A DNA stretch of 64,000 bases, taken from contig NZ_JAABNR010000009.1 of NCBI RefSeq assembly GCF_009925085.1, forward strand, positions 124,001 through 188,000, written 5' to 3'. How positions within the stretch are numbered: the first letter of the stretch is position 1; the number at the start of each line of letters is the position of its first letter. The notes beneath the pieces were generated by a model, which saw nothing but the letters and a program-made list of their open reading frames with translations, was not told where the DNA came from and did no database searches. A program made the position numbers and the translations under genes. Below, in pieces: positions 7,851 through 62,579 of the stretch. The stretch comes from Stagnihabitans tardus. GTDB taxonomy: Bacteria > Pseudomonadota > Alphaproteobacteria > Rhodobacterales > Rhodobacteraceae.

Positions 7851-7879
7851 GCGTAGCCCGGGGTCGTGACCCCGGGTCC
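7851..7879. repeat. Palindromic element GCGTAGCCCGGGGT family, copy 1
   Basis: GCGTAGCCCGGGGT is followed by a few variable bases and then ACCCCGGG. Similar palindromes occur at 20748-20775 (opposite orientation) and 29511-29540. This copy lies 5 bases outside the 3' end of the minus-strand phosphatase gene. It looks like a REP-type dispersed hairpin that may also assist termination. Confidence 0.55.
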
Positions 7880-7884
7880 TGGGG

Positions 7885-8730: not shown

Positions 8731-8764
8731 CTTGGCTCCAAGGACGGGGGCATCCTGCCACCGG

Positions 8765-8790
8765 ACTCCCTGAGGATATTTGCGAAGAGA
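8765..8790 (-). repeat. Stop-linked intergenic element, divergent copy E
   Basis: The plus strand reads CTCCCTGAGG, ATATTTG, CG, AAGAGATGAA. This resembles the other copies of the element (3572-3606 and others) but lacks the GCC block and has no GC hairpin beside it. Its right end merges with the start codon region of the alpha/beta hydrolase gene at 8790. Confidence 0.4.
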
Positions 8791-47796: not shown

Positions 47797-47985
47797 GTGC
47801 TATTCCCTTTGTTCAATCTGCGCAGGGCCTGAAGACCGCCCCCTTCTGCAAACAGGTTAACGGTGCGGGGCAGGGCGGCCTATCGGCCAGATGGCCGAGG
47901 CGATGGCCTAGGCCGGATGGCCCATGCCATCGCAGAGGGGGCCTCGCCGATTGCCAAGCCTGCCCCCGGCATGGGAACATGGGCC

Positions 47986-49314
47986 ATGTTCACCAGCCCC
48001 TCCCCCTTCGAGGATGCCGACCGGGACTTCGCGGTCTCCCATCCCTTGCGGCCCCTGCTTCTGGCCGGGGTCGTGACGCTGCTCGCCTATGGCTGCGGCG
48101 TGGTTGTGGTCTGGTTCATCGCGCGGGGACTTCAGGGCTTCGGACTCTGGATCGGCGCGGCCCTGGTCTTCCTGGCCTCCTGGGCCGCCCTGGTGTCCGT
48201 CATGGCCTGGCGCCGCCCCGGCCCGCGTGAAACCGTGCTGATCTGGGGCAAGGCCTCGGTCTATATCATCCTGGTCTCGCAGCTCTTGGTGGCCTGGGCG
48301 ATCTGGGGCTTCTTCCCGGCGCTGGAGCCTGCGCCGCGCATGATGCTGGCGGGGATGTTCCTGATCTGCTCTCCGGCGCAGCTGATCGCCGCGCCCGAGA
48401 ACGTGGCGGCCAACCGCTTCGGCATCCTGGCCAGCGCGGGGTCGCTGGTGGCCTGGTTCGCGCTGCGGGGCGGGGGGCTGGATCTTGCCATGGCGGCATT
48501 CAGCTTCGGGGTCGGGGGGATGTTCTTTGTCCTCGCGGGCTATCTGCCCGGCACGGTGATCGAGACGGTGGCCGCCCGCCGCGCCGCCGAAGAGGCCCGC
48601 GCCCGGCTGGAGATCGCGCTGCAAGCCGTAGCCGAAGAGCGCGACGCCAAGACGCGCTTCATCGCGGCGGCGAGCCATGACCTCGGCCAACCCCTGCAAG
48701 CGGCGGGGCTCTTCTTCGACCAGGTCCTGCGCGCCCCCGATCCGGCGCAAAGGGCGCGGGCCGAGGATGGTGTCCGCCGCGCCTTTGCCGCCGCCGACCA
48801 GCTGATCTCCCATATGCTGAACCACCTGCGGCTCGAGGCCGATGCGGTCGATCCCTATCTGGTGACGCTGGAGCTTGGCCCGGTCCTGGCCCGCGTCGCG
48901 GCGCAATTCGCGCCCTCGGCCGAGGAGGCGGGGGCGCGGATCACGGTCCTGCCCAGTCGGGCAAGGGTGCGGGTCGACCGGGTGCTCTTCGAGCGCGCCC
49001 TGGGCAACCTGGTCGCCAATGCCATCACCCATGCGCGCGCCGCGCGCATCCTGGTGGGGGTGCGCCAGGCGGGCGGCCTGGTCCGGGTCTGGGTCATCGA
49101 CAATGGCGCGGGCATCGCGCGGGTCGATATGGGCCGGGTCTTCGACGACTACTACCGTGGCGACAGCGGGGCGCGGGTCAAGGGCGGCTTCGGCCTCGGC
49201 CTCGCCTCGGTGCGGCGGATCGCGCGGCTCATGGGGGGCTCTGCGGGGCTGGAACCCGCCTGGACCCGAGGCGCCGCCTTTTACCTGGAATTCCCCGGCC
49301 TGAAGGAGGAGTGA
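47986..49314 (+). CDS. Membrane sensor histidine kinase
   Basis: Two-component sensor of about 442 residues. Five to seven hydrophobic segments (residues 20-190) precede a coiled-coil (ARRAAEEARARLEIALQAVAEERD). FIAAASHDLGQPLQAAG is the HisKA phospho-acceptor box, and NLVANAITHA, VIDNGAGIARV and GFGLGLASV are the N, G1 and G2 boxes. The start may be 47971 or 47986. It is coupled to a LuxR-type response regulator whose ribosome binding site is inside the last codons. Confidence 0.88.
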   Translation: MFTSPSPFEDADRDFAVSHPLRPLLLAGVVTLLAYGCGVVVVWFIARGLQGFGLWIGAALVFLASWAALVSVMAWRRPGPRETVLIWGKASVYIILVSQLLVAWAIWGFFPALEPAPRMMLAGMFLICSPAQLIAAPENVAANRFGILASAGSLVAWFALRGGGLDLAMAAFSFGVGGMFFVLAGYLPGTVIETVAARRAAEEARARLEIALQAVAEERDAKTRFIAAASHDLGQPLQAAGLFFDQVLRAPDPAQRARAEDGVRRAFAAADQLISHMLNHLRLEADAVDPYLVTLELGPVLARVAAQFAPSAEEAGARITVLPSRARVRVDRVLFERALGNLVANAITHARAARILVGVRQAGGLVRVWVIDNGAGIARVDMGRVFDDYYRGDSGARVKGGFGLGLASVRRIARLMGGSAGLEPAWTRGAAFYLEFPGLKEE

Positions 49315-49316
49315 CG

Positions 49317-49949
49317 ATGCGCTTTCTGATCTGCGACGACCATGCCCTGGTGCGCGAGGCCCTGGGCGGCACGGTCTCGATGGGCTGGCCCGGGGCGGTG
49401 GTCGATCTTGCCGGGGATTTCCCCACGGCCTGGGCCAAGGCGGCCTTGGGCCATGACCTGATCCTGTGTGACCTGGTGATGCCCGGGGCCGCGCCCCTGG
49501 CCGGGATCGACGGGCTGATCCGGGCGGCGCCGGGGGTTCCGGTCCTGGTGGTGACCGGGACCGAGGATGACGCGCTTCTCCTGGACCTTCTGGCGCGGGG
49601 CGTGGCGGGCTTTGCGCCCAAGTCCGCCAGCGGCGCCATCATCGAGGCGGCGATGCGGCTGATCCTGGCGGGCGGGCGCTACCTGCCGCCGCGCCTGGCC
49701 GATATCGCCACCTCGCGCAGTCAAACCCTCCAGCGCGACGATGTGGCGCAACTGACCGCCCGGCTGACCGATCGGCAGATGGATGTGTTGCACCTGATCG
49801 CCAAGGGCCAGTCCAACAAGGAGATCGCCCGGGCTCTGGACCTCTCGCCCTCGACGGTGAAATCCCACATCAGCCATGTGCTGACCTGTCTTGGCGCCGC
49901 CAACCGGACCGAGGCCGCGATCAAGGCGCGGCTGTTGGACCTGGTCTGA
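49317..49949 (+). CDS. NarL/FixJ-type response regulator
   Basis: Response regulator of 210 residues. The receiver has CDDHALVREAL acidic pocket, DLILCDLVMPG phospho-acceptor Asp, VVTGTE Thr and PKSA Lys. The C-terminal LuxR-type helix-turn-helix is LTDRQMDVLHLIAKGQSNKEIARALDLSPSTVKSHI. Start ATG 49317 follows AAGGAGG. An overlapping GTG at 49311 is also possible. It is the partner of the preceding histidine kinase. Target genes are unknown. Confidence 0.92.
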   Translation: MRFLICDDHALVREALGGTVSMGWPGAVVDLAGDFPTAWAKAALGHDLILCDLVMPGAAPLAGIDGLIRAAPGVPVLVVTGTEDDALLLDLLARGVAGFAPKSASGAIIEAAMRLILAGGRYLPPRLADIATSRSQTLQRDDVAQLTARLTDRQMDVLHLIAKGQSNKEIARALDLSPSTVKSHISHVLTCLGAANRTEAAIKARLLDLV

Positions 49950-50004: not shown

Positions 50005-50727
50005 ATGACGAAAGTGGCAGTGGTGACGGGGGCGGCGGGGGGCCTGGGGCGGGCGATCAGCGCGCGGCTGATGGCCGATGGCCTGCATGTCGTGGGCATG
50101 GATATCGACGCTGCGGGGCTGGCAGAGATGGCCGCGCCGGGCTTCACCGGGCTGCGGGTCGACCTGATGGACGCGGAGGCGATTGCCTCGGCCTTTGCCG
50201 AGGTGGGGGCCGCTCACGGCGGGGTGGATGCGCTGGTGAACAACGCGGGCACCTGTTTCATGTCGGACTTCCCGCATATCCCGGCGCAGGAGCTGGAGGC
50301 CCAGATGCGGCTGAACTTCTCGGGCGCCTTTCATTGCTGCCAGGCGGCGATCCCCTTGATGGAGGGCCGCCCGGGCGTGCGCAAGATCGTCAATATCTCC
50401 TCGAACGGGGCCTATAACTTCGAGGTCTTCGACCCGCCGCATTACCGGGCCTCGAAGGCCGCTTTGGACACGCTGACCAAGGACCTCGCCCGCCGCTATG
50501 CCCGCGAGAAGATCGCGGTCAATTCCATTGCCCCCGCCATGACGGAAACGCCGCTCTTCAAGGTCCTGACCGAGGATGTCCTGGCCCGCGCCATCTCGGC
50601 CATGCCGCATGGCCACGCGATGCAACCCTCTGAAATCGCGGCCTGGGTGGGGTTCCTGATCTCTTCGGCCGGGGATGTCTCCAGCGGCAATGTGATCATC
50701 CTGAACCAGGGCCGCGACGTCAGGTGA
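50005..50727 (+). CDS. Short-chain dehydrogenase/reductase
   Basis: Classical SDR of 240 residues. VVTGAAGGLGRAISARL is the NAD(P)-binding glycine motif and DALVNNAGT the stabilising NNAG. VNISSNGAY supplies the catalytic Ser and HYRASKAAL the YxxxK. The site after beta-2 (MDID) suggests NAD preference. GAGGGGGA precedes adjacent ATGs at 50002 and 50005. The 3' end overlaps the convergent MBL gene by eight bases. Substrate unknown. Confidence 0.85.
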   Translation: MTKVAVVTGAAGGLGRAISARLMADGLHVVGMDIDAAGLAEMAAPGFTGLRVDLMDAEAIASAFAEVGAAHGGVDALVNNAGTCFMSDFPHIPAQELEAQMRLNFSGAFHCCQAAIPLMEGRPGVRKIVNISSNGAYNFEVFDPPHYRASKAALDTLTKDLARRYAREKIAVNSIAPAMTETPLFKVLTEDVLARAISAMPHGHAMQPSEIAAWVGFLISSAGDVSSGNVIILNQGRDVR

Positions 50728-51478
50728 AACAGCGGGGCGCCTTGGGCAGGTCGGGCCATTGCGCGGGGCAGTGGCCATAGATCACCCGGGCGCCGCGCGC
50801 CCGCGCAAGCGCCATGATCCGCGCGCCGTGGTGAATGGCGAGGGGGACATTCCACGATCCCGCAAAGCCCTCGTCGATCTCTGCCGGGCGGCTGATCGCG
50901 TCCGAGGTCAGGAGCATCCAGCCGGTCTGGGGAAGGCGCAGAAGGAAGGCCAGCTGGCCCGGCGCATGGCCGGGGCAAAACAGCACCTCGAAATCCGGGC
51001 CAAGGGTCAGGTCCTCGGTCACCAGCCGGTAATCGGCCTCGGGCCAGTCCATCTTCTGCCCGCCCGACCAGTAGAGCGGCTTGGGCAGGTCGCGCTCGGC
51101 CTTGGCGATCAGGATGGGGGCCGGGGCGAAGGCGCCCATATGGCCCAGGTGGTCGATATGGGTGTGGCTTTGGATCATCAGCGTGACATCGGAAGGCCGC
51201 AGCCCCAAAAGCGCCAACTGGGCCTGGGGTGTGTTTTGTGGGCCGATTTCCAGAAGCTCTCCAAAGGCGCCGAGCCCGTCCTCCCCCGTCGCGGCCTGGG
51301 GGTCGGTCACATATTTCCCCGGAAAGCCCGTGTCGATCAGCACCAGTTCCCCGGCGTCGGTCCGGATCGCAAAGCCGCAGATGCCGATGATGCGCGGCCC
51401 GGAATGGACCTTGAAGAGCCCGTAATCCAGCACGGCCAGAGAGAGGGGTTTCCCCCGCAGCGCAAACTGTTCCATCAT
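50720..51478 (-). CDS. Metallo-beta-lactamase-fold hydrolase, lactonase-like
   Basis: MBL-fold protein of 252 residues. SHTHIDHLGHMG (HxHxDH) near residue 105, a later FCPGHAPGQL His, LLTSDAI Asp and YGHCPAQ His complete a binuclear zinc site like that of AHL lactonases (AttM/AiiA type). Lactone hydrolysis is plausible but not established. It is divergent from the aminotransferase, with 24 bases between the starts. Confidence 0.8.
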   Translation of the reverse strand: MMEQFALRGKPLSLAVLDYGLFKVHSGPRIIGICGFAIRTDAGELVLIDTGFPGKYVTDPQAATGEDGLGAFGELLEIGPQNTPQAQLALLGLRPSDVTLMIQSHTHIDHLGHMGAFAPAPILIAKAERDLPKPLYWSGGQKMDWPEADYRLVTEDLTLGPDFEVLFCPGHAPGQLAFLLRLPQTGWMLLTSDAISRPAEIDEGFAGSWNVPLAIHHGARIMALARARGARVIYGHCPAQWPDLPKAPRCFT

Positions 51479-51502
51479 GGGCCGATCAAGAGGGGCGGGG
51501 CC

Positions 51503-52633
51503 ATGAAAGTCAAGATACACACGCTGTTCCAGTATCTTCTGGAAACCACGCAATCCGCGCCCGAGGCTATCGTCGGCTTTTCGCTCTCGGCCTCGCCCAA
51601 GCTGGGGGAGTTCCTGGCCGACCTTGACCCCGACCTGAGCCTGGACTGGAACGGCCGCGATTTCCGCGGCCTGCCGGAGTTGCGCGACCATGTGCTGACC
51701 CAGGCCGGGCTGGTGGGGCTATGCGCCCCCGAGGATGTGCTGATCACCGCAGGGGCGGCGGAGGCGAATTACCTCGTCTTGATGCAGTTTCTCCAGCCCG
51801 GTGACCGGATCGTAATCGAGGCCCCGGGCTGGCCGCAAGCCGAGGTCATCGCCAAGGCCAAGGGGGCCGAGATCGTCAAGGTCTGGCGCGAAGAGGCCCT
51901 TGGCTGGCGTCTGCCCTTGGACCGGCTGGCCGAGGCGGTGACGCCCGGCACGCGCCTGGTCTTCCTGACCAATCCGAACAACCCGACCGGGGCTTTGATG
52001 CAGGCGGAGGAGCTTGCCGAGGTGGTCGCCATCGCCGACCGTGTGGGCGCCTGGCTTCTGGTCGACGAGGTCTATGCGGGACTCGAATGGGACGCCCCGC
52101 GCGCGCCTTCGGTGGCGGGGCTTTACGCTCGGGGGATCACCACGGGCTCGGTCTCCAAGGCCCTGGGGCTGCAGGGGTTGCGGACCGGCTGGCTGATCTG
52201 CCGCGATGCGGGGCTGATGCGGGATGCGCTGATCCTGCGCGAAAACGCCAGCGAGATCATGAACATCATGGGTGAGGTCATCGCCGAGGTGGCCCTCCGC
52301 CCGGCCCGCTACGCCCCCGCCCTGGCGCGGGCCAGGGCCGAGGGCAGGGCCAACCTGGCCGAGATTGCCTCTTGGGTCGCAGCGCAAGATCGGGTGACCT
52401 GGGTGCCGCCGCGTGCAGGCCTCATCGGCCTTGGCCGCCTGGCCCCGGGGATGGACAGCGAGGCCTTTGCGCGTTTCCTCTTGGCGCCGCCCTACCGGAC
52501 TTTCCTTCTGCCCGGCAGCGCCTATGACCTGCCGGGCCATATCCGCCTGGGCGTCGGTGGCGGGGCAGGGGTCAAGCTGCAGGACGGGCTTTCCCGCCTT
52601 GCAAGGGCCTTGAACGACTGGCCAGGAGCATAG
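51503..52633 (+). CDS. Class I/II PLP-dependent aminotransferase
   Basis: Fold-type I aminotransferase of 376 residues. ITAGAAEANYLVLMQFLQPGD, FLTNPNNPTGALM, LLVDEVYAGLEW (Asp-Tyr) and TGSVSKALGLQGLRTGWL with the PLP Lys are clear. The N-terminal domain is shorter than in aspartate aminotransferases. Substrate is unknown, though neighbours (SDR, lactonase-like MBL) suggest small-molecule catabolism. Confidence 0.85.
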   Translation: MKVKIHTLFQYLLETTQSAPEAIVGFSLSASPKLGEFLADLDPDLSLDWNGRDFRGLPELRDHVLTQAGLVGLCAPEDVLITAGAAEANYLVLMQFLQPGDRIVIEAPGWPQAEVIAKAKGAEIVKVWREEALGWRLPLDRLAEAVTPGTRLVFLTNPNNPTGALMQAEELAEVVAIADRVGAWLLVDEVYAGLEWDAPRAPSVAGLYARGITTGSVSKALGLQGLRTGWLICRDAGLMRDALILRENASEIMNIMGEVIAEVALRPARYAPALARARAEGRANLAEIASWVAAQDRVTWVPPRAGLIGLGRLAPGMDSEAFARFLLAPPYRTFLLPGSAYDLPGHIRLGVGGGAGVKLQDGLSRLARALNDWPGA

Positions 52634-52643
52634 GCGGGGCAGC

Positions 52644-53291
52644 CTAAGCCCGCAACCGGCTGCCGTCCTGCGCGAAGTGTCGGGGGAAGCACAGCGCGAG
52701 CGCCGTCATGACCGTGCGCCGCGCCTCGTCGACGGCATAGGGCGTGTGCAGGGTCATCAGGTCAAGCCAGGTGCCCTCGATCACCACCCGCAGGATGCGC
52801 GCCGCGATCACCGGGTCCAAGGGATAGGACCTTTGCCGGATCAGCGCCGCGCAGATGGTCTCCATCTTGGCGACATAGGAGGCGTCCTTTTCCCCGCAGG
52901 CCGTTTGGTAATCCGGGCGGCTCTGCGCCTCGCCCCAAAAGGCGCACCAGGCCCCAAGCCGGGCTTGGGTCGTCAGCGCGGGGGCGAAATCCACCGCGAT
53001 CAAGGCGAGGATCTGGTCCGCCGGGTCCTCGCCCGCCCCGTCCAGCGCGGCCTGCCAATGGGTCTGATACTCCTCCGCCAGAAAGGCCAGGGTCTCGGCC
53101 AGAAGCTTTTCCTTGCTGTCGAAATGAAAGAGCACCAGGCCATGGCTGATCCCCGCCGTCCGCGCCACCTCGGTCAGGGTGGTGCGCGCATGGCCCCTTG
53201 CGGCAAGCGTCGCAATCGTCGCCTCGATCACCTGAAGGCGGCGGGCTTCGCGGGCCAGGGTGCGTGGGGGTTTTTCGGGATCGGCGGTCAA
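52644..53291 (-). CDS. TetR/BetI-like repressor of the Rieske-ABC operon
   Basis: Repressor of 215 residues resembling BetI. The N-terminal helix-turn-helix RRLQVIEATIATLAARGHARTTLTEVARTAGISHGLVLFHFDSKE is followed by a ligand domain with WCAFWGEAQSRPDY. The first start is TTG at 53291, supported by AGGAG six bases upstream. Its promoter (53318-53345) overlaps an inverted repeat also overlapping the divergent promoter, so autoregulation and control of the oxygenase operon are likely. A choline- or betaine-like inducer is plausible by similarity to BetI. Confidence 0.82.
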   Translation of the reverse strand: MTADPEKPPRTLAREARRLQVIEATIATLAARGHARTTLTEVARTAGISHGLVLFHFDSKEKLLAETLAFLAEEYQTHWQAALDGAGEDPADQILALIAVDFAPALTTQARLGAWCAFWGEAQSRPDYQTACGEKDASYVAKMETICAALIRQRSYPLDPVIAARILRVVIEGTWLDLMTLHTPYAVDEARRTVMTALALCFPRHFAQDGSRLRA

Positions 53292-53317
53292 GACGGGCTC
53301 CTGCGAGGGACGGGCTG

Positions 53318-53346
53318 GTTATAATCTGATTGACAAGTCAGTCAAT
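53318..53346. promoter_or_regulatory. Divergent promoter/operator of the Rieske operon
   Basis: ATTGACAAGTCAGTCAAT (53329-53346) is an inverted repeat ATTGAC, N6, GTCAAT. On the minus strand TTGACT (53340-53345) and TATAAC (53318-53323), spaced 16 bases, form the repressor promoter. On the plus strand a perfect TTGACA (53330-53335) lies 44 bases before the oxygenase ATG, with only a weak -10. Binding of one TetR dimer would block both. Confidence 0.65.
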
Positions 53347-53379
53347 GGCGGGAAATCCTGTGCCAAGGAGGAGCCGCCC

Positions 53380-54588
53380 ATGACCGCGCAACTGCCCTTT
53401 CCGACCGAAGCCACGCCGAACGACTGGGACCGCAGCGGGTTGCCCGCCTGGACCTATCACTCGCCCGCCATCTTTGACCTGGAGCGCGAGGTTTTCCTGA
53501 ACCATTGGCAGGTCGTGGGCCATGCCAGCGACATTCCCGCGCCGGGGGATTGGCTGGCCTTCGACATCCTGGGCGAGCGCGCGGTGGTGATGCGCGGCCA
53601 GGATGGGGTGGTGCGGGCGTTCCATAACCTGTGTCGCCATCGCGGCGCGCGGGTGGTGGACGGGGTGCAGGGCAACTGCCGGGGCGCGGTGGTCTGCCCC
53701 TTCCACGGCTGGGTCTATAACCTGGACGGCACCCTGCGCGGTGCGGCGCGGCCCGAGAGCTTCGGGGCTCTCGACCGCGAGAAATTCGGCCTGAAACCCA
53801 TCGAGATGGAGTGTTTCCACGGCTTCCTCTTCCTGCGCTTTCACCCCGGCCCGCAGCCCTCGGTCGCCGAGCTTCTGGCGCCCTTCGCCGAGGATTTCGC
53901 GGCCTATCGCGCGGCGGGGCTTCTGGCGGTGGGGGAATCGAGCTGGCTGACCGAGCTGCCGGTGAACTGGAAATCGGTGCGCGATGTCGACAACGAGGGC
54001 TATCATGTGGCGCTGGCCCATCCTTCGCTGCAAGAGCTTTACGGGCGCGATTATGCCGACCACCAGCTTCAGGGCGGCATCAACTTCTCGCGCGGGGGTT
54101 TTGGTGACAAGCCGGGGCGGCGCTGGTCGGTGAAGGAATATGTCAAGCTGTCGGAGGACCCGCCGGGCCTGCCTGACCACCTGAAGAAGACCTGGACCTA
54201 TTACGGGATGTTCCCCGCCATCGTCTTCGCCTTCACCCCCGAGGGCGCGCAATTCTACCATGAAATCCCGATCGGTCCCGGCCAGACCCGCCTGACGGGC
54301 CGCCAATACCGTTACCCCGAGGAGACCCGCCGCCAGCGCCTCGCCCGCTACCTGGCGATGCGGATCGACCGCGACACTTCGGCCGAGGATCAGCAGCTGA
54401 CGATCTGGTCGAACGAGTCGATGAAGTCCCAGGCCTTCGAGGGCTTCCACCTCTCTGACCTGGAATACGGGCTCCGCGCCCATCACGACCGCTTGCGCGC
54501 CCTTATCCCGGTCATGCGCCTGGCCAAGGCCCCGCCTGAATCGGAAATCGCGCGGCTCAATGCGGAAATGCTTGGCAAACTCCCCTGA
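53380..54588 (+). CDS. Rieske non-heme iron oxygenase, large subunit
   Basis: Ring-hydroxylating-type oxygenase alpha subunit of 402 residues. The Rieske motif is C85-R-H87 and C106-P-F-H109, and the mononuclear iron site includes H209 and H214 within DNEGYHVALAHPS. Full length with a C-terminal SRPBCC-like fold. The subfamily resembles enzymes that demethylate or hydroxylate quaternary amines (GbcA, stachydrine or carnitine oxygenases) as much as aromatic dioxygenases. No reductase or ferredoxin gene is next to it. Strong CAAGGAGGAG site upstream. First gene of the operon. Confidence 0.85.
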   Translation: MTAQLPFPTEATPNDWDRSGLPAWTYHSPAIFDLEREVFLNHWQVVGHASDIPAPGDWLAFDILGERAVVMRGQDGVVRAFHNLCRHRGARVVDGVQGNCRGAVVCPFHGWVYNLDGTLRGAARPESFGALDREKFGLKPIEMECFHGFLFLRFHPGPQPSVAELLAPFAEDFAAYRAAGLLAVGESSWLTELPVNWKSVRDVDNEGYHVALAHPSLQELYGRDYADHQLQGGINFSRGGFGDKPGRRWSVKEYVKLSEDPPGLPDHLKKTWTYYGMFPAIVFAFTPEGAQFYHEIPIGPGQTRLTGRQYRYPEETRRQRLARYLAMRIDRDTSAEDQQLTIWSNESMKSQAFEGFHLSDLEYGLRAHHDRLRALIPVMRLAKAPPESEIARLNAEMLGKLP

Positions 54589-54641
54589 CCGGGGACAGAC
54601 TTCGCAAAAGCCCAGCAGAGGCGACACCCAGGGAGATCACC

Positions 54642-55745
54642 ATGCGTCCGAACCGCCGTTCCGCCCTTCTTGGCCTTGGGGCCGGTCTTGCTGCGCCTTG
54701 GGTCCGCCCCTCCTGGGCCGCCTCTGGCGTGGTCAATGTCTATAACTGGTCGGACTATATCGGCGAGACGACCTTGGCCGATTTCACCTCTGAGACCGGG
54801 GTCGAGGTCGTCTATGACCTTTACGCGAGCTCCGAAGAGGCCGAGGCCAAGATGCTGGCGGGATCGACCGGCTATGACCTGGTGATCCAGTCGGGGATGA
54901 AGCTGCAGCGCATGGTGGCGGCCGGGGTCTATCAGAAGCTCGACCGCGCGCGGTTGCCCAATTGGAAGAACCTGGACCCCGCCATCCTGAAGATCGTCGA
55001 GGGCTTCGACCCCGGCAATGCCTATACCTCGCCCTATATGTGGGGATCTACGGGCATCACCTATAACCTGGACATGGTGCGCGAGCGGCTGGGGGATATC
55101 GACCTGAACAGCCTTGACGTGCTGTTGAAGCCGGAAAATGCCGAGAAGCTCGCCGATTGCGGGATCTCGCTGCTCGATAGCCCGACGGATTGGGGCTATA
55201 TGGTGCTGAAGTATATCGGGCTGGACAGCAATACGGCCGGAGAGGCCGAATATGCCAAAATGGCCGAGGCCATGGCGCCCCTGCGGCCTTTCGTGGCCAC
55301 CTTCGACAATGCCAACTACCTGACGACGCTGCCCAACAAGGAGCTTTGCGTGGCGAACACCTGGTCGGGCGATTACGGCGTGGCCAAGGCCCGGGCGGCC
55401 GAGGCGGGGATCGAGTTGAACCTCGCCTATTTCGTGCCCAAATCCGGCGCCCCCGCCTGGTTCGACCTCTGGGCCATCCCCTCGGATGCTCCGAACCTGG
55501 AGAACGCCTATCTCTTCCTGGATTACATGATGCGCCCCGAGGTCGTGGCGGCCTGTTCCAACTTCACCGGCTATGCCAATGCCAACAAGGCGGCGACCGC
55601 CTTCGTCGACGCCGCCATCGCCAGCGATCCGGCGATCTATCCCGATGCCGAGACCCTGGCGCGGATGTATACCCCCGCCCCCCTGACCGATGCCCAGGAA
55701 GAGGCCATCACCCGCATCTGGACAGAGATCAAGACCGGTGGCTGA
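54642..55745 (+). CDS. PotD/PotF-like ABC substrate-binding protein
   Basis: Periplasmic binding protein of 367 residues for polyamines or related amines. NRRSALLGLGAGLAAPWVRPSWA is a twin-arginine-like signal. VVNVYNWSDYIGETTLADFTSETGVEVVYDLYASSEE is the PotD/PotF start, with YMWGSTGITYN and YANANKAA later. The ligand cannot be inferred precisely. The gene overlaps the ATPase gene by eight bases. Confidence 0.88.
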   Translation: MRPNRRSALLGLGAGLAAPWVRPSWAASGVVNVYNWSDYIGETTLADFTSETGVEVVYDLYASSEEAEAKMLAGSTGYDLVIQSGMKLQRMVAAGVYQKLDRARLPNWKNLDPAILKIVEGFDPGNAYTSPYMWGSTGITYNLDMVRERLGDIDLNSLDVLLKPENAEKLADCGISLLDSPTDWGYMVLKYIGLDSNTAGEAEYAKMAEAMAPLRPFVATFDNANYLTTLPNKELCVANTWSGDYGVAKARAAEAGIELNLAYFVPKSGAPAWFDLWAIPSDAPNLENAYLFLDYMMRPEVVAACSNFTGYANANKAATAFVDAAIASDPAIYPDAETLARMYTPAPLTDAQEEAITRIWTEIKTGG

Positions 55746-56817
55746 GTTCCTGCAAATCGAGGGGGTCTCCAAGAGTTTCGGCCCCTTCCAGGCCGTCCGA
55801 AATGTCTCGCTTTCGGTTGCCAAGGGCGAGATCTTCTCGCTTCTGGGCGGGTCGGGCTGCGGGAAAACCACGTTGTTGCGCATGCTGGCGGGCTTCGAAG
55901 AGCCAAGCGCGGGCCGCATCCTGATCGAGGGCCGCGACATGGCGGGCGTCCCCCCCTGGGCGCGCCCGGTCCACATGATGTTCCAAAGCTATGCGCTTTT
56001 CCCCCATATGACGGTCGAGGCGAATATCGGCTATGGGCTGAAGCACGAGCCGCTTTCGGTGGCGCAGCGCAAGGACCGCGTCCGCGAAATGCTGGACCTC
56101 GTGCAGCTGACCCCCATGGCGACCCGCAAGCCGCACCAGATCTCGGGCGGGCAGCGGCAGCGGGTGGCGCTGGCCCGGGCGCTTGCGCGGCAACCCAAAC
56201 TGCTTCTCTTGGACGAACCCCTTGCCGCGCTGGACAAGAAGCTCCGCGAACACACCCAGTTCGAGCTGATGGAGATCCAGGAACGCATCGGCGTCACCTT
56301 CGTCGTCGTGACCCATGACCAGGAAGAGGCGATGACCCTTTCCGACCGCATCGCCGTCATGGACAAGGGCCAGGTCCAGCAGGTGGGCAGCCCGACCGAG
56401 ATCTACGAATACCCGGTCAACCGCTTTGTCGCCTCCTTCATCGGCGCCATCACTTCGTTTGAGGCCGAGGTCACCGCCCGCGCGCCCGGCACCCTGACCC
56501 TGCATGTCCCGGCCTTCGGGCAAGAGGTCACCACCCGCGAGGCCGATTTCGCCCCCGGCGCCAAGGTGACCCTGGCGCTGAGGCCGGAAAAGCTGGTGAT
56601 CTCCAAGACCCGCCCCCCGGGCAATGCGGTGCAGGGCGTGGTCAAGGACCTGGCCTATTTCGGCAAGGACAGCCTTTACCGCATCACGCTCGCCTCGGGC
56701 GCCCTGGTCCAGGCCCATGCGGTGAACCAGGCCCGCGGCGTGGCCATGGTGGCCGATTGGGACGACCAGGTCTGGCTCTCCTTCGACCCTTCCGCCGCCA
56801 TCGTGCTGGGAGGCTAG
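55738..56817 (+). CDS. PotA/PotG-like ABC transporter ATPase
   Basis: Spermidine/putrescine-type ATP-binding subunit of 359 residues. Walker A is GGSGCGKTT (residues about 37-45), with the Q-loop in FQSYALFPHMT, signature SGGQRQRVALARAL, Walker B LLLLDEPLAALD and H-loop VVTHDQ. A C-terminal TOBE domain (VTLALRPEKLVIS) follows. A GTG start at 55738 inside the end of the binding-protein gene gives translational coupling. Confidence 0.93.
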   Translation: MAEFLQIEGVSKSFGPFQAVRNVSLSVAKGEIFSLLGGSGCGKTTLLRMLAGFEEPSAGRILIEGRDMAGVPPWARPVHMMFQSYALFPHMTVEANIGYGLKHEPLSVAQRKDRVREMLDLVQLTPMATRKPHQISGGQRQRVALARALARQPKLLLLDEPLAALDKKLREHTQFELMEIQERIGVTFVVVTHDQEEAMTLSDRIAVMDKGQVQQVGSPTEIYEYPVNRFVASFIGAITSFEAEVTARAPGTLTLHVPAFGQEVTTREADFAPGAKVTLALRPEKLVISKTRPPGNAVQGVVKDLAYFGKDSLYRITLASGALVQAHAVNQARGVAMVADWDDQVWLSFDPSAAIVLGG

Positions 56818-56818
56818 G

Positions 56819-57715
56819 ATGAACTGGTTCCACCGCAGGGGCTGGCGCGACCTGATCATCGGATTGCCCTATCTCTGGCTGGCCCTCTTCTTTCTGGTGC
56901 CCTTCCTGATCGTCGTCGCCATGTCGGTCGCGACCAAGACGCCGACCGCGCCGCCCTTCTCCTTTGGCGGGGAGCACCCCTGGGTTAACCTGGAAACCTA
57001 CCAACGCCTGGTCTCCGAGCCCCTGTACCTGCGCGCCTTCCTGATCTCCTTGATGAATGCGGCGGGGACGACGGTCTTTTGCCTTCTGCTTGGCTATCCC
57101 ATGGCCTTGGGCCTGACCCGGGTGTCGCGCTCCGCCCGCAACATCCTGTTGATGCTGGTGATCCTGCCCTTCTGGACCTCGTTTCTGCTCAGGGTCTATG
57201 CCTGGATGGGGCTGATGGGCAAATCCTCCTGGTTCAACCAGGGGCTGACGGATGCCTGGAACTGGCTGGTGCCTGCCGATTGGGCGGTGAAATCCCTGCC
57301 GATGATGCATTCCAACTTCGCCGTCATCCTGGTCATGGTCTATACCTATCTGCCCTTCATGATCCTGCCGCTTTACGCCAGCCTGGAACGCCTCGACCCC
57401 ACCCTGGACGAGGCCGCGCTGGACTTGGGCTCCCGCCCCTGGCAGGTCTTCCTGGACGTCACCCTGCCGCAATCCGTGCCCGGCATCATCGCGGGCGGGC
57501 TTTTGGTCTTTATCCCCGCCGCCGGAGAGCTGGTGATCCCGACCCTGGTGGGCGATGCCTCTACCCCCATGATCGGGCGGGTGATCTCGGACCAGTTCTC
57601 CCAGGCCCGCGACTGGCCCATGGCCTCGGCGGTGGCGGTGGCGCTCCTCGCGCTGATGGTCGGCCCCACGATGCTTTACAGCCACTACCAGGCAAGGGCG
57701 GAGGGCAGCAAATGA
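56819..57715 (+). CDS. PotB-like ABC permease
   Basis: Inner-membrane permease of 298 residues with about six helices. VNLETYQRLV and the EAA-loop region LDEAALDLGSRPWQVFLDVTLPQSVPGIIAG are typical of PotB/PotH. One base separates it from the ATPase stop. Its stop overlaps the next permease start. Confidence 0.92.
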   Translation: MNWFHRRGWRDLIIGLPYLWLALFFLVPFLIVVAMSVATKTPTAPPFSFGGEHPWVNLETYQRLVSEPLYLRAFLISLMNAAGTTVFCLLLGYPMALGLTRVSRSARNILLMLVILPFWTSFLLRVYAWMGLMGKSSWFNQGLTDAWNWLVPADWAVKSLPMMHSNFAVILVMVYTYLPFMILPLYASLERLDPTLDEAALDLGSRPWQVFLDVTLPQSVPGIIAGGLLVFIPAAGELVIPTLVGDASTPMIGRVISDQFSQARDWPMASAVAVALLALMVGPTMLYSHYQARAEGSK

Positions 57716-58551
57716 ACCGCCGCCCGACATTCCTCATCACCATGCTGGGCTTTGGCTTCGCCTTCTTCTACGTCCCCATCCTGTCGATGGTGGTCTATTC
57801 CTTCAACGCCTCCCGGCTTGCTACCGTCTGGGGCGGGTTTTCGACCAAGTGGTATGTCTCGCTCTTCTCGAACAAGCAGGTGATCGAGGCCCTGACCCTG
57901 TCGCTGAAAATCGCCCTCGTCTCGGCCACGCTCGCCACGATCCTTGGGACGCTCGCGGGCATCGCCTTGGTAAGGTTCACGAAATTCCGGGGGAGGACGC
58001 TCTTCTCCGGCCTCGTTACCGCCCCCCTGATCATGCCAGAGGTGATCACCGGCGTCTCCTCGCTGATCTTCTTCCTGCTTCTGGCCAACTGGATCGGCTG
58101 GCCCGCCCAACGCGGCTTCACCACGATCACCCTGGCCCATATCACCTTTTCCATGGTCTTCGTGACGACCATCGTCCAGGCAAGGCTCCTGCAATCCGAC
58201 CGCGCCATCGAGGAGGCCGCGATGGACCTGGGCTCCCGTCCCTGGCAGGTGCTCTGGGACATCACCCTGCCGGTGATCTCTCCGGCGATCCTGTCGGGCT
58301 GGCTTCTGGCCTTTACGATATCGCTGGATGACGTGGTGATCACCTCCTTCACCACGGGGCCCGGCAGCACGACCCTGCCGCTCCTGATCTGGTCCAAGGT
58401 GAAACTCGGCGTCACGCCGGATATCAACGCCTTGGCGACCCTGATGGTCCTGGTCGTGGGCCTTGGCGTCGTCATCGCCGGTATCGCGATGAACCGGGCC
58501 GAGGCGCGGCGCATGGCGGACGAGCGCCTGGCCTATAGGGCGCAAGGATGA
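57712..58551 (+). CDS. PotC-like ABC permease
   Basis: Second permease of 279 residues with six predicted helices. FFYVPILSMVVYSFNASRL and the EAA motif IEEAAMDLGSRPWQVLWDITLPVISPAILSG match PotC/PotI. It overlaps the previous permease by four bases and the DMSP-lyase-like gene by four, so all are one transcript. Confidence 0.92.
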   Translation: MNRRPTFLITMLGFGFAFFYVPILSMVVYSFNASRLATVWGGFSTKWYVSLFSNKQVIEALTLSLKIALVSATLATILGTLAGIALVRFTKFRGRTLFSGLVTAPLIMPEVITGVSSLIFFLLLANWIGWPAQRGFTTITLAHITFSMVFVTTIVQARLLQSDRAIEEAAMDLGSRPWQVLWDITLPVISPAILSGWLLAFTISLDDVVITSFTTGPGSTTLPLLIWSKVKLGVTPDINALATLMVLVVGLGVVIAGIAMNRAEARRMADERLAYRAQG

Positions 58552-59378
58552 GCCTCCTCGGCATCCCCCCCGCCCCCGGCGCAGGCCGCGCGCGCTATGC
58601 CCGCGCCATGGCGCTTTACGCGCAAGGCGCGCTCAGCCCCGCCCAGCTCGAGGCCTACCGCGTCGCCGCCGCCCATGACGGGCCGCCCAATGCCACCTTC
58701 GCCGATCGAGGACTGCCCTTGCCGCAAGACTCCTGGCCTGACGACCCGATCCTGACAGCGGTGGATGAGGCCGACCGCTACCTCGCGACGCTCCAGGGCC
58801 CCGGCCTGGCCGAGGTCCGCGCCGGGATCGCCGCCCACCGCGCGGCACCCCTCCCGCCGGACCCGCAGTCCCATCCGGTGGTGGAGACGCACCTCCCCCC
58901 AGCCCTGAAAGCCCTGCACGAAACCCATCCCGCCCTGGCCCAGGCCCTGGCCCAGGTGGCGCCCCTCCTGCACTGGCACCCCTATGACCGCTACCCGGCC
59001 GAGACCATCGGCGCCGATTTCCTGCACGGCAACGCCTATGCCCTGCTGATCGGCGAGGGCGCCCCGATCCCCGCGCCCGACTTCCACCTGGGTCTCTTCC
59101 TGATCGCGCCCCATGTGGTCTACCGCGACCACAACCACCCCGCGCCCGAGCTTTACGCGCCGCTCACCGGCCCCCACGGCTGGCGCTTTGACCCCAAGGC
59201 GCCCTTGGTGATCAAACCCGCCCACCAGCCGGTCTGGAACCCGTCCCTGCAGCCCCACCTGATCAAGATCGGCCCCATGCCCTATCTTTGCCTTTACGGC
59301 TGGACCCGAGACACCGACAAACCCGCCCTCGTCATCCCTGCCGATGACTGGCCCGCCCTGGAAACCCTGCGCCTGTAA
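58548..59378 (+). CDS. DMSP-lyase-family (DddQ/DddL-like) cupin protein
   Basis: Protein of 276 residues with a C-terminal cupin of the dimethylsulfoniopropionate lyase family. VVYRDHNHPAPELYAPLTG puts H197, E201 and Y203 in the order and spacing of DddQ metal and catalytic residues His125, Glu129 and Tyr131 (from memory). QPHLIKIGPMPYLCLYGW gives H237 for the fourth ligand. The N-terminal about 150 residues are an added helical domain; DddQ is nearer 200 residues. It ends a transporter operon. Many relatives are not proven lyases, so DMSP cleavage is a hypothesis. Confidence 0.72.
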   Translation: MSLLGIPPAPGAGRARYARAMALYAQGALSPAQLEAYRVAAAHDGPPNATFADRGLPLPQDSWPDDPILTAVDEADRYLATLQGPGLAEVRAGIAAHRAAPLPPDPQSHPVVETHLPPALKALHETHPALAQALAQVAPLLHWHPYDRYPAETIGADFLHGNAYALLIGEGAPIPAPDFHLGLFLIAPHVVYRDHNHPAPELYAPLTGPHGWRFDPKAPLVIKPAHQPVWNPSLQPHLIKIGPMPYLCLYGWTRDTDKPALVIPADDWPALETLRL

Positions 59379-59387
59379 GGAGCCCGC

Positions 59388-59747
59388 ATGACCTTCTCTG
59401 ACGACGACCGCAAGATCGCCAATATCCATGAGGCCACCTTTACCCCCTTCGTCTATCCCGACGGTGTGGCCTTGGGCGACGATATCCTGCAACTCGACCC
59501 GACGACGCCGCTCGGAGAGGGCTTTCACGTCTACCGCATGCCCGCCGGCATGACGACGCGCCGCCATATCCACAACGGGCATGAGCAGTTCCTGATCCTG
59601 GAGGGCGAGCTGATCGAGGACGATGGTCGCGTCCTCAAGGCGGGCGACCTGGTCTTCTACCGCGACGGGACCGAGCATCACTCCTACACCCCGAACGGCT
59701 GCCTTCTGGCCGTGCATATCGCGGGGCCGGAGATTTCGACCCGCTAA
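59388..59747 (+). CDS. Small cupin-2 domain protein
   Basis: Cupin of 119 residues. HVYRMPAGMTTRRHIHNGHEQFLILEGELIEDDGRVLKAGDLVFYRDGTEHHSYTPNG spans motif 1 (HxH and E) and motif 2 (H). Start has AAGGAG. It is the last gene of the Rieske-ABC operon. Its stop region is repeated (59736-59747 and 59758-59769). An isomerase or sensor role in the same catabolic path is possible. Confidence 0.82.
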   Translation: MTFSDDDRKIANIHEATFTPFVYPDGVALGDDILQLDPTTPLGEGFHVYRMPAGMTTRRHIHNGHEQFLILEGELIEDDGRVLKAGDLVFYRDGTEHHSYTPNGCLLAVHIAGPEISTR

Positions 59748-59769
59748 GGCAAGGATCTCGACCCGCTAA
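59736..59769. repeat. Direct duplication across the cupin stop
   Basis: TCGACCCGCTAA occurs at 59736-59747, covering the cupin stop, and again at 59758-59769. In the second copy the minus-strand reading supplies the TAG stop of the convergent GNAT gene (59766-59768). Confidence 0.8.
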
Positions 59770-60473
59770 AGCGACAGGTGATAGACCCGGGCGCTGCGGT
59801 CAAAGCCCACGATGCGGCGGCCTGATGCAAAGGCCGCCTCGAGCGCCGCGCGCAGGGCTTGGCGCAGGGCTGCGGCCTGGTCGGGGTCCTGGGCGGCCAG
59901 GGCCGCGATATCTTCGGGCAGGGGGAGCGCCAGGGGTTCGGAGGCCACCGCCGGGGCCTGACCGCCAAGCCGGGCGGAGACGCCGGGGGAGGCCAGCTCC
60001 CAATCGGCCAAGAGCCGGTCAGAGCCCAGGCCCCGGTTGATCCCCGCCATCTCGCCGTAATAATCGCGCAGATAGACCCCGGCCTCGGCGCCCAGGCGGT
60101 CGATGTTCAAAGTCGCATTGACCACCCGCAAAGGGTCGAAGGTCCAGCGCACCCTTGCGATCCCCCGCGCCAGGCACCAGCCGCGCTGGTAAAGCTTCAG
60201 CCGCACCCCAAGCCCCAGACCCCGCGCCTGGGGCAGGACCGCCAGGCGGTGCGAGTACTGGACTGTGGCCTCCCGCGTCGGAAAGCCGAAGACATAGCCC
60301 ATCAGCCGCCCCTGAACGAAGGCGCCGCCCACCAGCCCGCCCGCGGCCTGGATCGCCAGCATCAGGTCGGCGGGGTCGGGTTGGTCGCCCTCGCCCCAGA
60401 CCGCGCGCTGGAGGGCCTCGGCCTCTTGCAGCTCGGCCATGCCGTGCAAATCGCGGAAGGTGACGTCGGTCAT
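59766..60473 (-). CDS. GNAT acyltransferase coupled to an enolase-family racemase
   Basis: Acyl-CoA-dependent N-acyltransferase of 235 residues in the COG3375-like group. LAVLPQARGLGLGVRLKLYQRG is the CoA-binding motif. The central VRWTFDPLRVVNATLNIDRLGA block is characteristic. It overlaps the racemase-like gene by four bases. In Geobacillus a GNAT N-succinyltransferase partners N-succinylamino acid racemase to convert D- to L-amino acids, and a similar role is inferred here. Confidence 0.75.
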   Translation of the reverse strand: MTDVTFRDLHGMAELQEAEALQRAVWGEGDQPDPADLMLAIQAAGGLVGGAFVQGRLMGYVFGFPTREATVQYSHRLAVLPQARGLGLGVRLKLYQRGWCLARGIARVRWTFDPLRVVNATLNIDRLGAEAGVYLRDYYGEMAGINRGLGSDRLLADWELASPGVSARLGGQAPAVASEPLALPLPEDIAALAAQDPDQAAALRQALRAALEAAFASGRRIVGFDRSARVYHLSL

Positions 60474-61585
60474 GCGGAAAAATCCTCAAGCGAGATTGTG
60501 GCATGGGGCAGGTAATCCAGATCCAGCGTCACGCCAATCCCCGGGCCCTTGGGCACCGGCATCCGGCCCGCCGTGGTTTCCAGCTTTTGTTCCACGATGT
60601 CGCGGGTGAAATAGCGGCTGGCCGAGGAGGTGTCGCCGGGCTTGGTGAAGCCGGGGAGCGTCGAGATATGGATGTTATGGGCGCGGCCCACGCCTGATTC
60701 CAGCATCCCCCCGCACCAGACCGGCACCTGGAAGGCGGAGCAAAGGTCATGGATGCGCCGTGCCTCGACATGGCCTCCGACGCGGCCCACCTTGATGTTG
60801 ATGACCCGCGCCGCATCGGTTTGCAGCGCCTTGCGGGCGTGGTCGAGGGTGCGGATGCATTCATCGAGGCAAAGCGGCGTCCTGATCCGCCGCTGCAAGG
60901 TCGCGTGGTCGTGGATGTCGTCCCAGGCGAGCGGCTGTTCGATGTAATCGAGCCCAAAGTCATCCATCGCCGCGATCAGCCCGCTGTCGGCCAAGGTATA
61001 GCAGCAATTGGCGTCCACCGTCAGATGGGCGTCCGGATACTCCGCCCTCACCGCCCGCAGAAGCCCCAGGTCATGGCCCGGCTTCACCTTCAGCTTGATC
61101 CGCTTGTAGCCCTGGTCCAGGTGGCTGCCCACCCGCTCCAGCGTCTGCGCAATCGGCCCGATCCCCAGCGAGACGCCCACGTCGATCGCATCCCCCTCAC
61201 CGCCCAGTAGCGTCTGCAAGGGCAGGCCAAGGCTCTTCGCCCAAAGGTCCCAGAAGGCCATCTCGACCGTCGCCTTGGCCATGTGATTGGCCCGCCAGGG
61301 CGCCAGAACCCGAGCCAGCGCCTCGGGGTTGGCGAAACTGCGGCCGAGGACCTGCGGCAGAAGCACCTTCTCCAACAGGTCCATGGCCCCTGCCACGGTC
61401 TCTTCCAGATAGTCGGGCAGCGGGTCCATCACCCCCTCGGCATAGCCCTCGAGCCCCCCCGATTTCAGCGTCAGCAGAGGAAAGACCTTCTCGGTCAAGG
61501 TCCCCGTCGCAATCGTGAAGGGCGTGACCAGCGGCAGGCGCACCAGGCGCAGGGTGGCGGCCTCGATCTTCAAGGGTGCTGTCAT
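60470..61585 (-). CDS. Enolase-superfamily N-acylamino acid racemase/OSBS-like
   Basis: Muconate-lactonising subgroup enolase of 371 residues. Catalytic Lys pair K164/K166 (KLKVK) and K265 (NIKVG), and metal ligands D191, E216 and D241, are all present. WCGGMLESGVGRAHNIHIS is typical of OSBS/NSAR proteins. No menaquinone genes are around and a GNAT is fused by overlap, so N-acylamino acid racemase is more likely than o-succinylbenzoate synthase. First gene of a two-gene operon divergent from an RpiR regulator. Confidence 0.8.
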   Translation of the reverse strand: MTAPLKIEAATLRLVRLPLVTPFTIATGTLTEKVFPLLTLKSGGLEGYAEGVMDPLPDYLEETVAGAMDLLEKVLLPQVLGRSFANPEALARVLAPWRANHMAKATVEMAFWDLWAKSLGLPLQTLLGGEGDAIDVGVSLGIGPIAQTLERVGSHLDQGYKRIKLKVKPGHDLGLLRAVRAEYPDAHLTVDANCCYTLADSGLIAAMDDFGLDYIEQPLAWDDIHDHATLQRRIRTPLCLDECIRTLDHARKALQTDAARVINIKVGRVGGHVEARRIHDLCSAFQVPVWCGGMLESGVGRAHNIHISTLPGFTKPGDTSSASRYFTRDIVEQKLETTAGRMPVPKGPGIGVTLDLDYLPHATISLEDFSA

Positions 61586-61640
61586 TTTGGGCTCCTGTCC
61601 CGGAGGGTTCGTTTCAGCTTACTTGCAAGATTGACCGATT

Positions 61641-61649
61641 GAAAGTTTC
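61641..61649. promoter_or_regulatory. Candidate RpiR operator
   Basis: GAAAGTTTC is a perfect short palindrome, and GAAAG (61641-61645) with CTTTC (61658-61662) gives a wider inverted repeat. It lies between the racemase-like gene and the RpiR gene, 34 bases before the latter. Confidence 0.4.
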
Positions 61650-61682
61650 CTGTCACTCTTTCTTTAACCAAGGGAGATCAGG

Positions 61683-62579
61683 GTGGACGACGGGTCCGAC
61701 AGCACCAGCGATCTGCGCAACCGCCTGGCCCAGGCGCAGGACGCGGGCACGCCCTCCGAACGCGCGATTGCGCATTACCTGCTGACCAACCTCTCGGCGC
61801 TCCCTTTCGAGACGGCGGCCACCGTGGCCGCCAAGGTGGGCGTGTCGGAGGCCTCGGTGGGGCGGTTTTGCCGGTCGATCGGTTATCGGCATCTGAAAGA
61901 GCTGAAGGGGTCCTTGCAGGCCGACCTTGGCGACAAGGCCTGGCTGATCGGCGACCGGTTGAAGGAATTCCACGCGCGCTCGCGCGACGGCCATGAACTC
62001 TCCCGCGCGCTTGAGCGTGAGATTGCCGCCCTGGTCACGGTCTATGAACTGGCCGCCAGCGCGCCCTTTGCGGCGGCGGTGCAAAGGCTGGCCCGCAGGC
62101 GGCATGTCTTTGTCGCGGGCTTTCAGACCGAGCGGGGCCATGCGGCAGAGTTGGTGCATAACCTGCAATACCTCCGCCCCGGGGTGCAGCTGGCCGATGT
62201 CGCGGGCGGGCATTTCGCCGAGGTCCTGCTGTCGGACCCCGAGGAGACCACCCTCGTCCTGGTCGACGGCCGCCGCTATTCCCGCCTGACCCGCGACCTG
62301 GCCCTTGCTGCTCGGGACGAGGGCATCCCGGTTACCCTGATCACCGATCCCTATTGCGACTGGGCGCCCGGCCTTGTGACCGAGGTCTTCCCGGTGCCCA
62401 CCGACCTCAACCACTTCTGGGACACGACCTCTGCCATGTCCTCCTTGATCGGGCTCCTGGTCAACGGGGTCTTTGCCGAACTCGGCGCCGAGGTCGAGGA
62501 CCGCATGGCCCGCGTCTCGGCGCTTTACAGCGACTTCATCGGACATACCGCCCCGGGGCGCAACCCGGGCAAACCCTAG
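61683..62579 (+). CDS. MurR/RpiR-family regulator
   Basis: Transcriptional regulator of 298 residues. The N-terminal helix-turn-helix (TPSERAIAHYLLTNLSALPFETAATVAAKVGVSEASVGRFCRSIGY) precedes a SIS domain with HVFVAGFQTERGHAAELVHNLQYL, which normally binds phosphosugars. It uses a GTG start with AAGGGAG upstream. It is divergent from the racemase operon and 16 bases from an ABC binding protein, so it probably controls both. Confidence 0.88.
   Translation: MDDGSDSTSDLRNRLAQAQDAGTPSERAIAHYLLTNLSALPFETAATVAAKVGVSEASVGRFCRSIGYRHLKELKGSLQADLGDKAWLIGDRLKEFHARSRDGHELSRALEREIAALVTVYELAASAPFAAAVQRLARRRHVFVAGFQTERGHAAELVHNLQYLRPGVQLADVAGGHFAEVLLSDPEETTLVLVDGRRYSRLTRDLALAARDEGIPVTLITDPYCDWAPGLVTEVFPVPTDLNHFWDTTSAMSSLIGLLVNGVFAELGAEVEDRMARVSALYSDFIGHTAPGRNPGKP

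Follow-up and report, generated by a model that had tools for sequence, protein, structure and literature searches.

The stretch of DNA analysed here, hereafter the window, comprises 64,000 nt of contig NZ_JAABNR010000009.1 from Stagnihabitans tardus. At positions 52644–59747 its list of open reading frames (ORFs) contains one minus-strand gene, encoding a BetI-like repressor of the TetR family (52644–53291), and seven divergent plus-strand genes. The first of the seven encodes a Rieske non-haem iron oxygenase, which we call Rieske1 (53380–54588; PF00355 and PF00848, both over cut-off). It is followed by the four genes of an ATP-binding cassette (ABC) importer: a PotF-like periplasmic binding protein (54642–55745), a PotG-like ATPase (55738–56817, alternative start 55690), a PotH-like permease (56819–57715) and a PotI-like permease (57712–58551), both permeases matching PF00528. 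Two cupin genes complete the series. The longer (58548–59378) contains a cupin domain like that of DddQ, a lyase of dimethylsulfoniopropionate (DMSP), at 58863–59288 (PF16867, 71.1 bits, cut-off 27), together with an extra N-terminal domain of about 70 residues that lies outside the Pfam match (Ndom, residues 1–72, 58548–58763); the shorter, Cupin2 (59388–59747), is a small single-domain cupin (PF12973 and PF07883, both over cut-off). Overlaps of 4 bp join the first permease to the second and the second to the cupin protein.

A sequence-only reading of the window had proposed these genes. The ORFs were found where it placed them, and Pfam matches back all eight; NCBIfam matches seven, a search with the cupin protein returning none. 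Pairwise Nei–Gojobori ratios of nonsynonymous to synonymous substitution rates (dN/dS), taken against four related loci (L053, L054, L056 and L061) for six genes (TetR, Rieske1, PotF, PotI, the cupin protein and Cupin2), ranged from 0.04 to 0.50, and these are therefore not chance ORFs. The values were 0.11–0.25 for Rieske1, 0.21–0.36 for PotF, 0.08–0.17 for PotI, 0.16–0.37 for TetR, 0.30–0.39 for the whole cupin protein (two comparisons) and 0.04–0.13 for Cupin2 (three comparisons), which was the lowest of the measured genes against L053 (0.08) and L054 (0.04); the highest, 0.50, came from Ndom against L053, over just 68 codons. Judged by these ratios, the genes of the operon are real and under purifying selection.

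Conservation of the cluster in Alphaproteobacteria

An alignment-based scan of named genomes with Rieske1 gave 475 matches, of which the best 80 were compared with the window. These best 80 come mostly from Rhodobacterales (Rhodobacter, Tabrizicola, Pseudorhodobacter, Cypionkella, Gemmobacter and one Roseovarius), with a few from Hyphomicrobiales, such as Aestuariivirga. Gene content was tabulated for the 51 of the 81 loci (window included) that have at least 8 kb to the left and at least 8.5 kb to the right of Rieske1, the 30 loci with shorter flanks being excluded. Rieske1 and Ndom are the constant parts of the cluster, present in 51 of 51 full-flank loci. PotF, PotG, PotH and PotI were each found in 49, TetR in 45, the DddQ-like domain in 43, a second, CntA-like Rieske protein (Rsk2) in 40 and Cupin2 in 15. 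The fuller copies also contain two CrtO-like flavoproteins (FADa and FADb) and a GcvT-like demethylase (27 each), a class-III aminotransferase (AT3; 27), an amidohydrolase (23), an S-adenosylmethionine methyltransferase (18), a kinase (5) and an MttB-family protein (3). FADa, FADb and GcvT are jointly present in 27 loci, jointly absent from 24 and never apart. Cupin2 co-occurs with GcvT in one of its 15 loci and with the methyltransferase in none; the exclusion of Cupin2 and GcvT represents just four independent pairs on well-supported branches of the Rieske1 tree, too few for significance.

In that tree the window falls in a four-row clade that lacks FADa–FADb–GcvT, Rsk2 and AT3, and three of the four rows also lack the DddQ-like domain. 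By gene content, the window carries a reduced version of a larger conserved alphaproteobacterial cluster. The cluster is apparently undescribed: we found no published account of this gene set in the open-licence literature, in agreement with the sequence-only reading, which knew of no pathway with exactly this set. Homarine catabolism, considered as a lead, was set aside after a search of the same literature yielded no homarine paper with these genes.

The same core also occurs in Shinella, Rhizobium, Ensifer and Parasedimentitalea, where Rieske1 is 48–60% identical; FADa (60–71%) and GcvT (49–57%) were measured in Shinella, Ensifer and Parasedimentitalea. In these three the core is accompanied by a polyamine-type importer and a class-III aminotransferase that are not orthologous to those of the window's relatives. 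PotD was the sole named-family match of the replacement binding protein in the two copies scanned (Shinella and Parasedimentitalea), and the replacement aminotransferase matches PRK07036 over cut-off in both. That one core is accompanied by different genes from the same functional classes suggests an amine substrate. The GcvT of full clusters has trimethylamine N-oxide demethylase as its nearest solved structure, followed by aminomethyltransferases, sarcosine oxidase and dimethylglycine oxidase. A GcvT-like subunit is what the full clusters share with the demethylase and the two oxidases, from which they differ in the two CrtO-like flavoproteins alongside; the window itself has no GcvT.

The MttB-family genes (trimethylamine methyltransferase-like) lie in L085 (2079–3617), L116 (17409–18986), L117 (3–734) and L076, and those of L085 and L116 match TIGR02369 best, below its cut-off. 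Adjoining the cluster copy of L116, the genes at 3389–8784 are what we take to be a beta-hydroxyaspartate cycle set; glyoxylate as a product would be in keeping with it.

The repressor and its operator

The repressor matches PF13977 (49.9 bits, cut-off 27) and PF00440, and an orthologue occurs in the 45 loci counted above; its earlier description as a BetI-like protein divergent from the operon stands. It shares the TetR_C_6 domain with BetI, the choline-responsive repressor, but scores 90.8 bits against the BetI model TIGR03384, whose cut-off is 201.3. Between the TetR and Rieske1 genes lies a strandless inverted repeat, ATTGAC-N6-GTCAAT (53329–53346). Its core, TGAC-N6-GTCA, recurs in 48 of 60 TetR-side regions (59 loci plus the window), where letter shuffles lead one to expect 0.2; spacings of 2 bp and 10 bp occur in 6 and 7 of the 60, some regions being counted twice. 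This recurrent divergent operator backs the proposal that the genes form a single regulated unit.

The half-sites ATTGAC and GTCAAT are identical to those of the R. pomeroyi betI box, given as ATTGACG*CGTCAAT in PMC12442346, with a spacing of 6 bp rather than 2 bp. A search of the host genome for missing pathway genes sharing the operator (20-base pattern, at most two mismatches) returned a single site, the window's own at 53326–53345. Neither the Rhizobiales copies nor that of Parasedimentitalea showed the motif; TetR identity is about 43% in the Shinella and Ensifer copies.

A BetI-like repressor would also suit a different explanation of the locus, the one put forward in the sequence-only reading. 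This is an osmolyte pathway whose substrate would be a zwitterion of betaine or sulfonium type (glycine betaine, carnitine, stachydrine or DMSP) and in which the cupin releases a leaving group such as dimethylsulfide. The BetI score below cut-off tells against it, and the remaining evidence on this explanation comes from the oxygenases, the importer and the cupin.

Rieske oxygenases and electron supply

The nearest solved relative of Rieske1 is the carnitine monooxygenase CntA and its nearest named family is GbcA, to whose model it scores 120.2 bits against a cut-off of 670. The Rieske ligands and the H-H-D site are present in 11 of 11 aligned rows, and D204-N-E206, H209, H214 and D360 are kept in 80 of 80 orthologues. 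In CntA, according to PMC7948474, from which we take the residue roles, Glu205 is the bridging residue and Tyr203 binds the quaternary ammonium group. With the register set by an alignment of structural relatives, all 80 Rieske1 orthologues have Glu (E206) at the first of these positions and Asp (D204) at the second, whereas the Rsk2 proteins of the relatives keep the Y203-x-E205 pattern of CntA in 61 of 61 cases. From this difference we infer that Rsk2 acts on a quaternary ammonium, and that Rieske1 binds its cationic substrate through a carboxylate. The kinship of Rieske1 with CntA and the CntA-like second Rieske protein of the relatives are what an osmolyte pathway would lead one to expect; the low GbcA score, and an Asp in place of the Tyr that binds quaternary ammonium in CntA, are not.

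Rieske1 further differs from CntA and GbcA in having no recognised reductase partner (CntB or GbcB) beside it: Pfam and NCBIfam recognise no reductase among the eight genes, as the sequence-only reading had observed. Searches of the whole genome found just two PF00970 proteins and one PF14759 ferredoxin reductase, all on other contigs; one PF00970 protein lies beside another Rieske gene on contig 54, and the PF14759 protein is on contig 11. Elsewhere in the same genome, on contig 3 (L133, 240000–258000), a second Rieske gene lies near an OYE-family flavoprotein and an amidohydrolase. The flavoprotein shares 45% identity with an OYE protein of the Parasedimentitalea cluster, the amidohydrolase 30% with its counterpart in full clusters.

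Ndom, the constant small domain

Across the 80 related loci, Ndom is fused to a DddQ-like cupin in 61 and occurs in a frame without that cupin in 13. Nine of the 13 are standalone genes and two are fused to Cupin2; in L090 the cupin occupies a frame that overlaps that of Ndom, and in L100 the Ndom frame runs into the contig end. The remaining six loci yielded neither Ndom nor cupin, and each offers at most 4.0 kb of sequence to the right of Rieske1. The two Cupin2 fusions, both in Tabrizicola (L058, 15204–15776; L059, 5639–6211), show one domain joined to two different cupins, their Cupin2 parts being 86–87% identical to the window's Cupin2 over 119 residues. In Shinella and Rhizobium, Ndom is a gene of 81–83 aa directly after GcvT, and it occupies the same place in Ensifer.

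The AlphaFold2 model of Ndom consists of three helices, at moderate confidence (mean predicted local distance difference test, pLDDT, 76.7). A Pfam search with one standalone copy gave no match, and a fold search of the PDB gave none under E 0.001. When 385 sampled Alphaproteobacteria genomes were searched with a profile, at most 15 candidates being scored per genome, Ndom turned up in the window's own genome only; with that limit on candidates, a miss counts for little. We tentatively considered reading Ndom as a small subunit of the sarcosine oxidase kind. In Parasedimentitalea the other core genes are present and Ndom is undetectable, so the domain is not universal.

The importer and its binding pocket

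The presence of import and oxygenation in one operon, as first proposed, is borne out by the importer and Rieske1 families. The importer had been assigned to the PotDABC type; its closest families are instead PotF, PotG, PotH and PotI, with scores all below the equivalog cut-offs (PotF, PRK10682, 362.6 against 636; PotG 425.9 against 613; PotH 283.2 against 489; PotI 333 against 476). For the ATPase, TIGR01187 is over cut-off (383.5 against 355.6 bits) and PotG is the best named family; PotH and PotI are likewise the best named families of the two permeases.

The binding protein aligns over its full length with PotF structures, and the window type has all four subunits of the putrescine importer PotFGHI and most of its ligand pocket. 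Among 72 binding proteins, the pocket keeps W37 (72), D39 (71), Y40 (72), W244 (72), D247 (70), W276 (72), D278 (71) and Y314 (72), Y40 and Y314 likewise belonging to the polyamine pocket. By the residue roles given in PMC8666671, D39 and D247 are the proximal acids, and positions 37, 244 and 276 (W37, W244 and W276 here) form the aromatic box. The window type differs from PotFGHI in that the distal E185, reported to be at least 96% conserved in polyamine binders, is Asp in 72 of 72 proteins. A182 is always Ser, F276 always Trp and L348 is Pro in 64 of 72, and positions 38 (Ala in 38, Ser in 33) and 85 (Ala in 37) vary.

An importer of this type, with W37, D39, W244, D247 and D278 kept, and the class-III aminotransferases beside it in relatives could mean ordinary uptake and oxidation of a polyamine (putrescine or spermidine), with no N-methyl chemistry. 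In the relatives, however, GcvT with its two flavoproteins (27 of 51 loci) and the CntA-like Rieske protein (40 of 51) point to N-methyl groups, and the repressor is BetI-like. The invariant Asp at position 185 adds weak evidence against a plain polyamine, since other family members share it. We consider this explanation unlikely. For a zwitterionic osmolyte, the amine-binding acids that the window's binding protein shares with PotF would be odd; the replacement binding proteins, which keep the aromatic box and few acids, would suit one.

The DddQ-like cupin and the question of DMSP

The AlphaFold2 model of the cupin (mean pLDDT 93.1) has its best fold matches in DddQ (5cu1, 4b29 and 4la2), at 18–22% identity. 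Six residues are essential in DddQ according to PMC4437653 (Y120, H123, H125, E129, Y131 and H163), and Y192, H195, H197, E201, Y203 and H237 of the window's cupin align opposite them. The sequence-only reading had called the metal and Tyr residues intact, and all six are indeed present. Within an alignment of 41 of the 61 fused frames plus the window, 37 of 42 sequences have the complete set, the exceptions being L071, L078, L080, L095 and L102. It is also complete in both solved DddQ sequences and in 15 of 17 distant Rhodobacteraceae members of the family, drawn from the best matches of a search, so that the residue set is not diagnostic of DMSP cleavage. The cupin of L095 (8105–8956), which belongs to the window's clade and retains its fusion to Ndom, has L-H-H-T-Y-L in place of the usual active-site set.

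We placed the cupin in a tree in which DddQ was the sole Ddd lyase type included, DddL and DddW being left out. All 11 sampled rows of the window's group form one clade (96/96 support), and both solved DddQ sequences fall elsewhere, with L026. Distance from DddQ and loss of the metal ligands had been named beforehand as findings that would count against DMSP-type chemistry: the distance is there, as a separate clade, and the ligands are kept. The nearest cousins of the clade, in L017 and L018, lie by eye between coenzyme A-ligase-like and beta-oxidation-like genes, and represent another cupin group.

The DddQ-like domain is missing from 8 of the 51 full-flank loci while the rest of the cluster stays. 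A close relative of the cupin is found on a Mesorhizobium plasmid (49% identity over query residues 53–276) beside an annotated ferredoxin and an FAD (flavin adenine dinucleotide)-dependent oxidoreductase; Rieske1 was not found on that plasmid, showing that the cupin can occur apart from the cluster. DMSP cleavage as the purpose of the operon is weakened by the separate clade, the eight loci without the domain and the importer type. With the DddQ-type DMSP lyases of PF16867 the cupin shares the fold and the Y-H-H-E-Y-H active-site set; it differs in its low identity, its clade, its extra N-terminal domain, its dispensability and the polyamine-type importer of its operon. On these comparisons, DMSP is an unlikely substrate, and we regard the cupin as an accessory protein related to DMSP lyases, not as evidence that DMSP is broken down. 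The label "DMSP lyase family" invites the inference of dimethylsulfide production; the motif alone is insufficient, because members of this clade belong to an amine-type operon that can persist when they are lost.

The fold match to DddQ is a point for the osmolyte pathway introduced above, and the distinct clade and the absence from eight loci are points against it. Weighed with the repressor, oxygenase and importer evidence, such a pathway seems to us rather unlikely, if worth keeping in view.

Neighbouring genes

On the repressor side of the operon (50723–52630) lie a lactonase-like metallo-beta-lactamase (AiiA-like, below cut-off) and a pyridoxal phosphate (PLP) enzyme convergent with TetR, whose nearest families (a generic aminotransferase, GntC and capreomycidine synthase) all score below cut-off. 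No relative of either protein was found in the other 80 loci. The PLP enzyme bears on one further explanation, catabolism of a cyclic guanidine or arginine-derived amine. Three genes have enzymes of the guanitoxin pathway as best or near-best named families. The PLP enzyme reaches 194 bits with GntC (cut-off 415), second to the generic aminotransferase model; the full-cluster aminotransferase reaches 422 bits with GntE (cut-off 525), and the kinase beside TetR in some relatives about 138 bits with GntI (cut-off 357). All of these scores are below cut-off and may merely reflect the nearest named members of large families, and the PLP enzyme has no relative at the other loci; we think guanidine catabolism very improbable.

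Further along on the same side, at 47863–49949, the ORF list shows by eye a membrane histidine kinase and, after it, a LuxR-type response regulator. Beyond Cupin2, a GNAT acetyltransferase overlaps an o-succinylbenzoate-synthase-family enzyme on the minus strand (59766–61585; TIGR01928, 303 bits, cut-off 200.65), adjoined by a plus-strand RpiR-type regulator (61683–62579; SapR-like, below cut-off). We take the genes at 59766–62579 to be perhaps a separate unit of N-acylamino acid racemase type.

Discussion

We favour, with a probability of roughly 0.48, the reading that these genes form a substrate-induced operon by which a cationic N-methylated amine, most likely of methylated di- or polyamine type, is taken up and broken down oxidatively. 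Without substrate, the BetI-like repressor would bind its recurrent operator and silence the operon. The PotF-type binding protein, with its conserved pocket, and the ABC importer would take up the amine. Rieske1, by its family, would hydroxylate a carbon adjoining the charged nitrogen and so bring about N-dealkylation, drawing electrons from a reductase presumably encoded elsewhere, and Ndom, as constant as Rieske1 among the full-flank loci, may be a dedicated partner in this chemistry. In full clusters Rsk2, FADa–FADb–GcvT, the class-III aminotransferase and the amidohydrolase would carry the product further, the FADa–FADb–GcvT unit passing the methyl carbon to tetrahydrofolate; the window genome would use other enzymes. 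The DddQ-like cupin would act as an accessory metal-dependent lyase, probably eliminating an amine from an intermediate.

Several observations weigh against this assignment. The window genome has no orthologue of GcvT (best 34% identity), FADa (30%) or AT3 (32%), so that the argument for N-methyl groups rests on the relatives. The BetI, GbcA and PotF models all score below their cut-offs. Of 13 distant binding proteins from the window's relatives, 7 likewise have Asp at position 185, which is therefore no sign of an unusual ligand. The replacement binding proteins of Shinella, Parasedimentitalea and L116 keep the aromatic box and D185 and have lost D39, D247 and D278; a strict primary amine is thus not needed everywhere, and quaternary amines stay in play as substrates. 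The assignment is, finally, one made from sequence.

The sequence-only reading had suggested catabolism of a betaine- or sulfonium-type osmolyte from one transcript. Catabolism holds up; DMSP does not, given the separate and dispensable cupin clade and the polyamine-type importer and pocket. A betaine-type osmolyte is possible because of the BetI-like repressor and half-sites, the CntA-like Rsk2 and GcvT of fuller copies, and the replacement binding proteins without the amine-binding acids; a cationic N-methylated amine is the better fit.

A bolder version of the amine reading can be put together, although as a whole it is improbable. It would make this a new pathway that degrades methylated diamines or polyamines, such as those of algae or plants, in which Rieske1 represents a new oxygenase subfamily that binds its cation through Asp204 and works with Ndom, itself coupled to two cupins by fusion, and in which the DddQ-like cupin is a carbon–nitrogen lyase that treats beta-alanine betaine, or another nitrogen analogue of DMSP, as DddQ treats DMSP, releasing trimethylamine and acrylate.

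If the amine reading is true, many Rhodobacteraceae and some rhizobia would share an undescribed route for methylated amines, one that includes a subfamily of Rieske oxygenases and a small partner protein.

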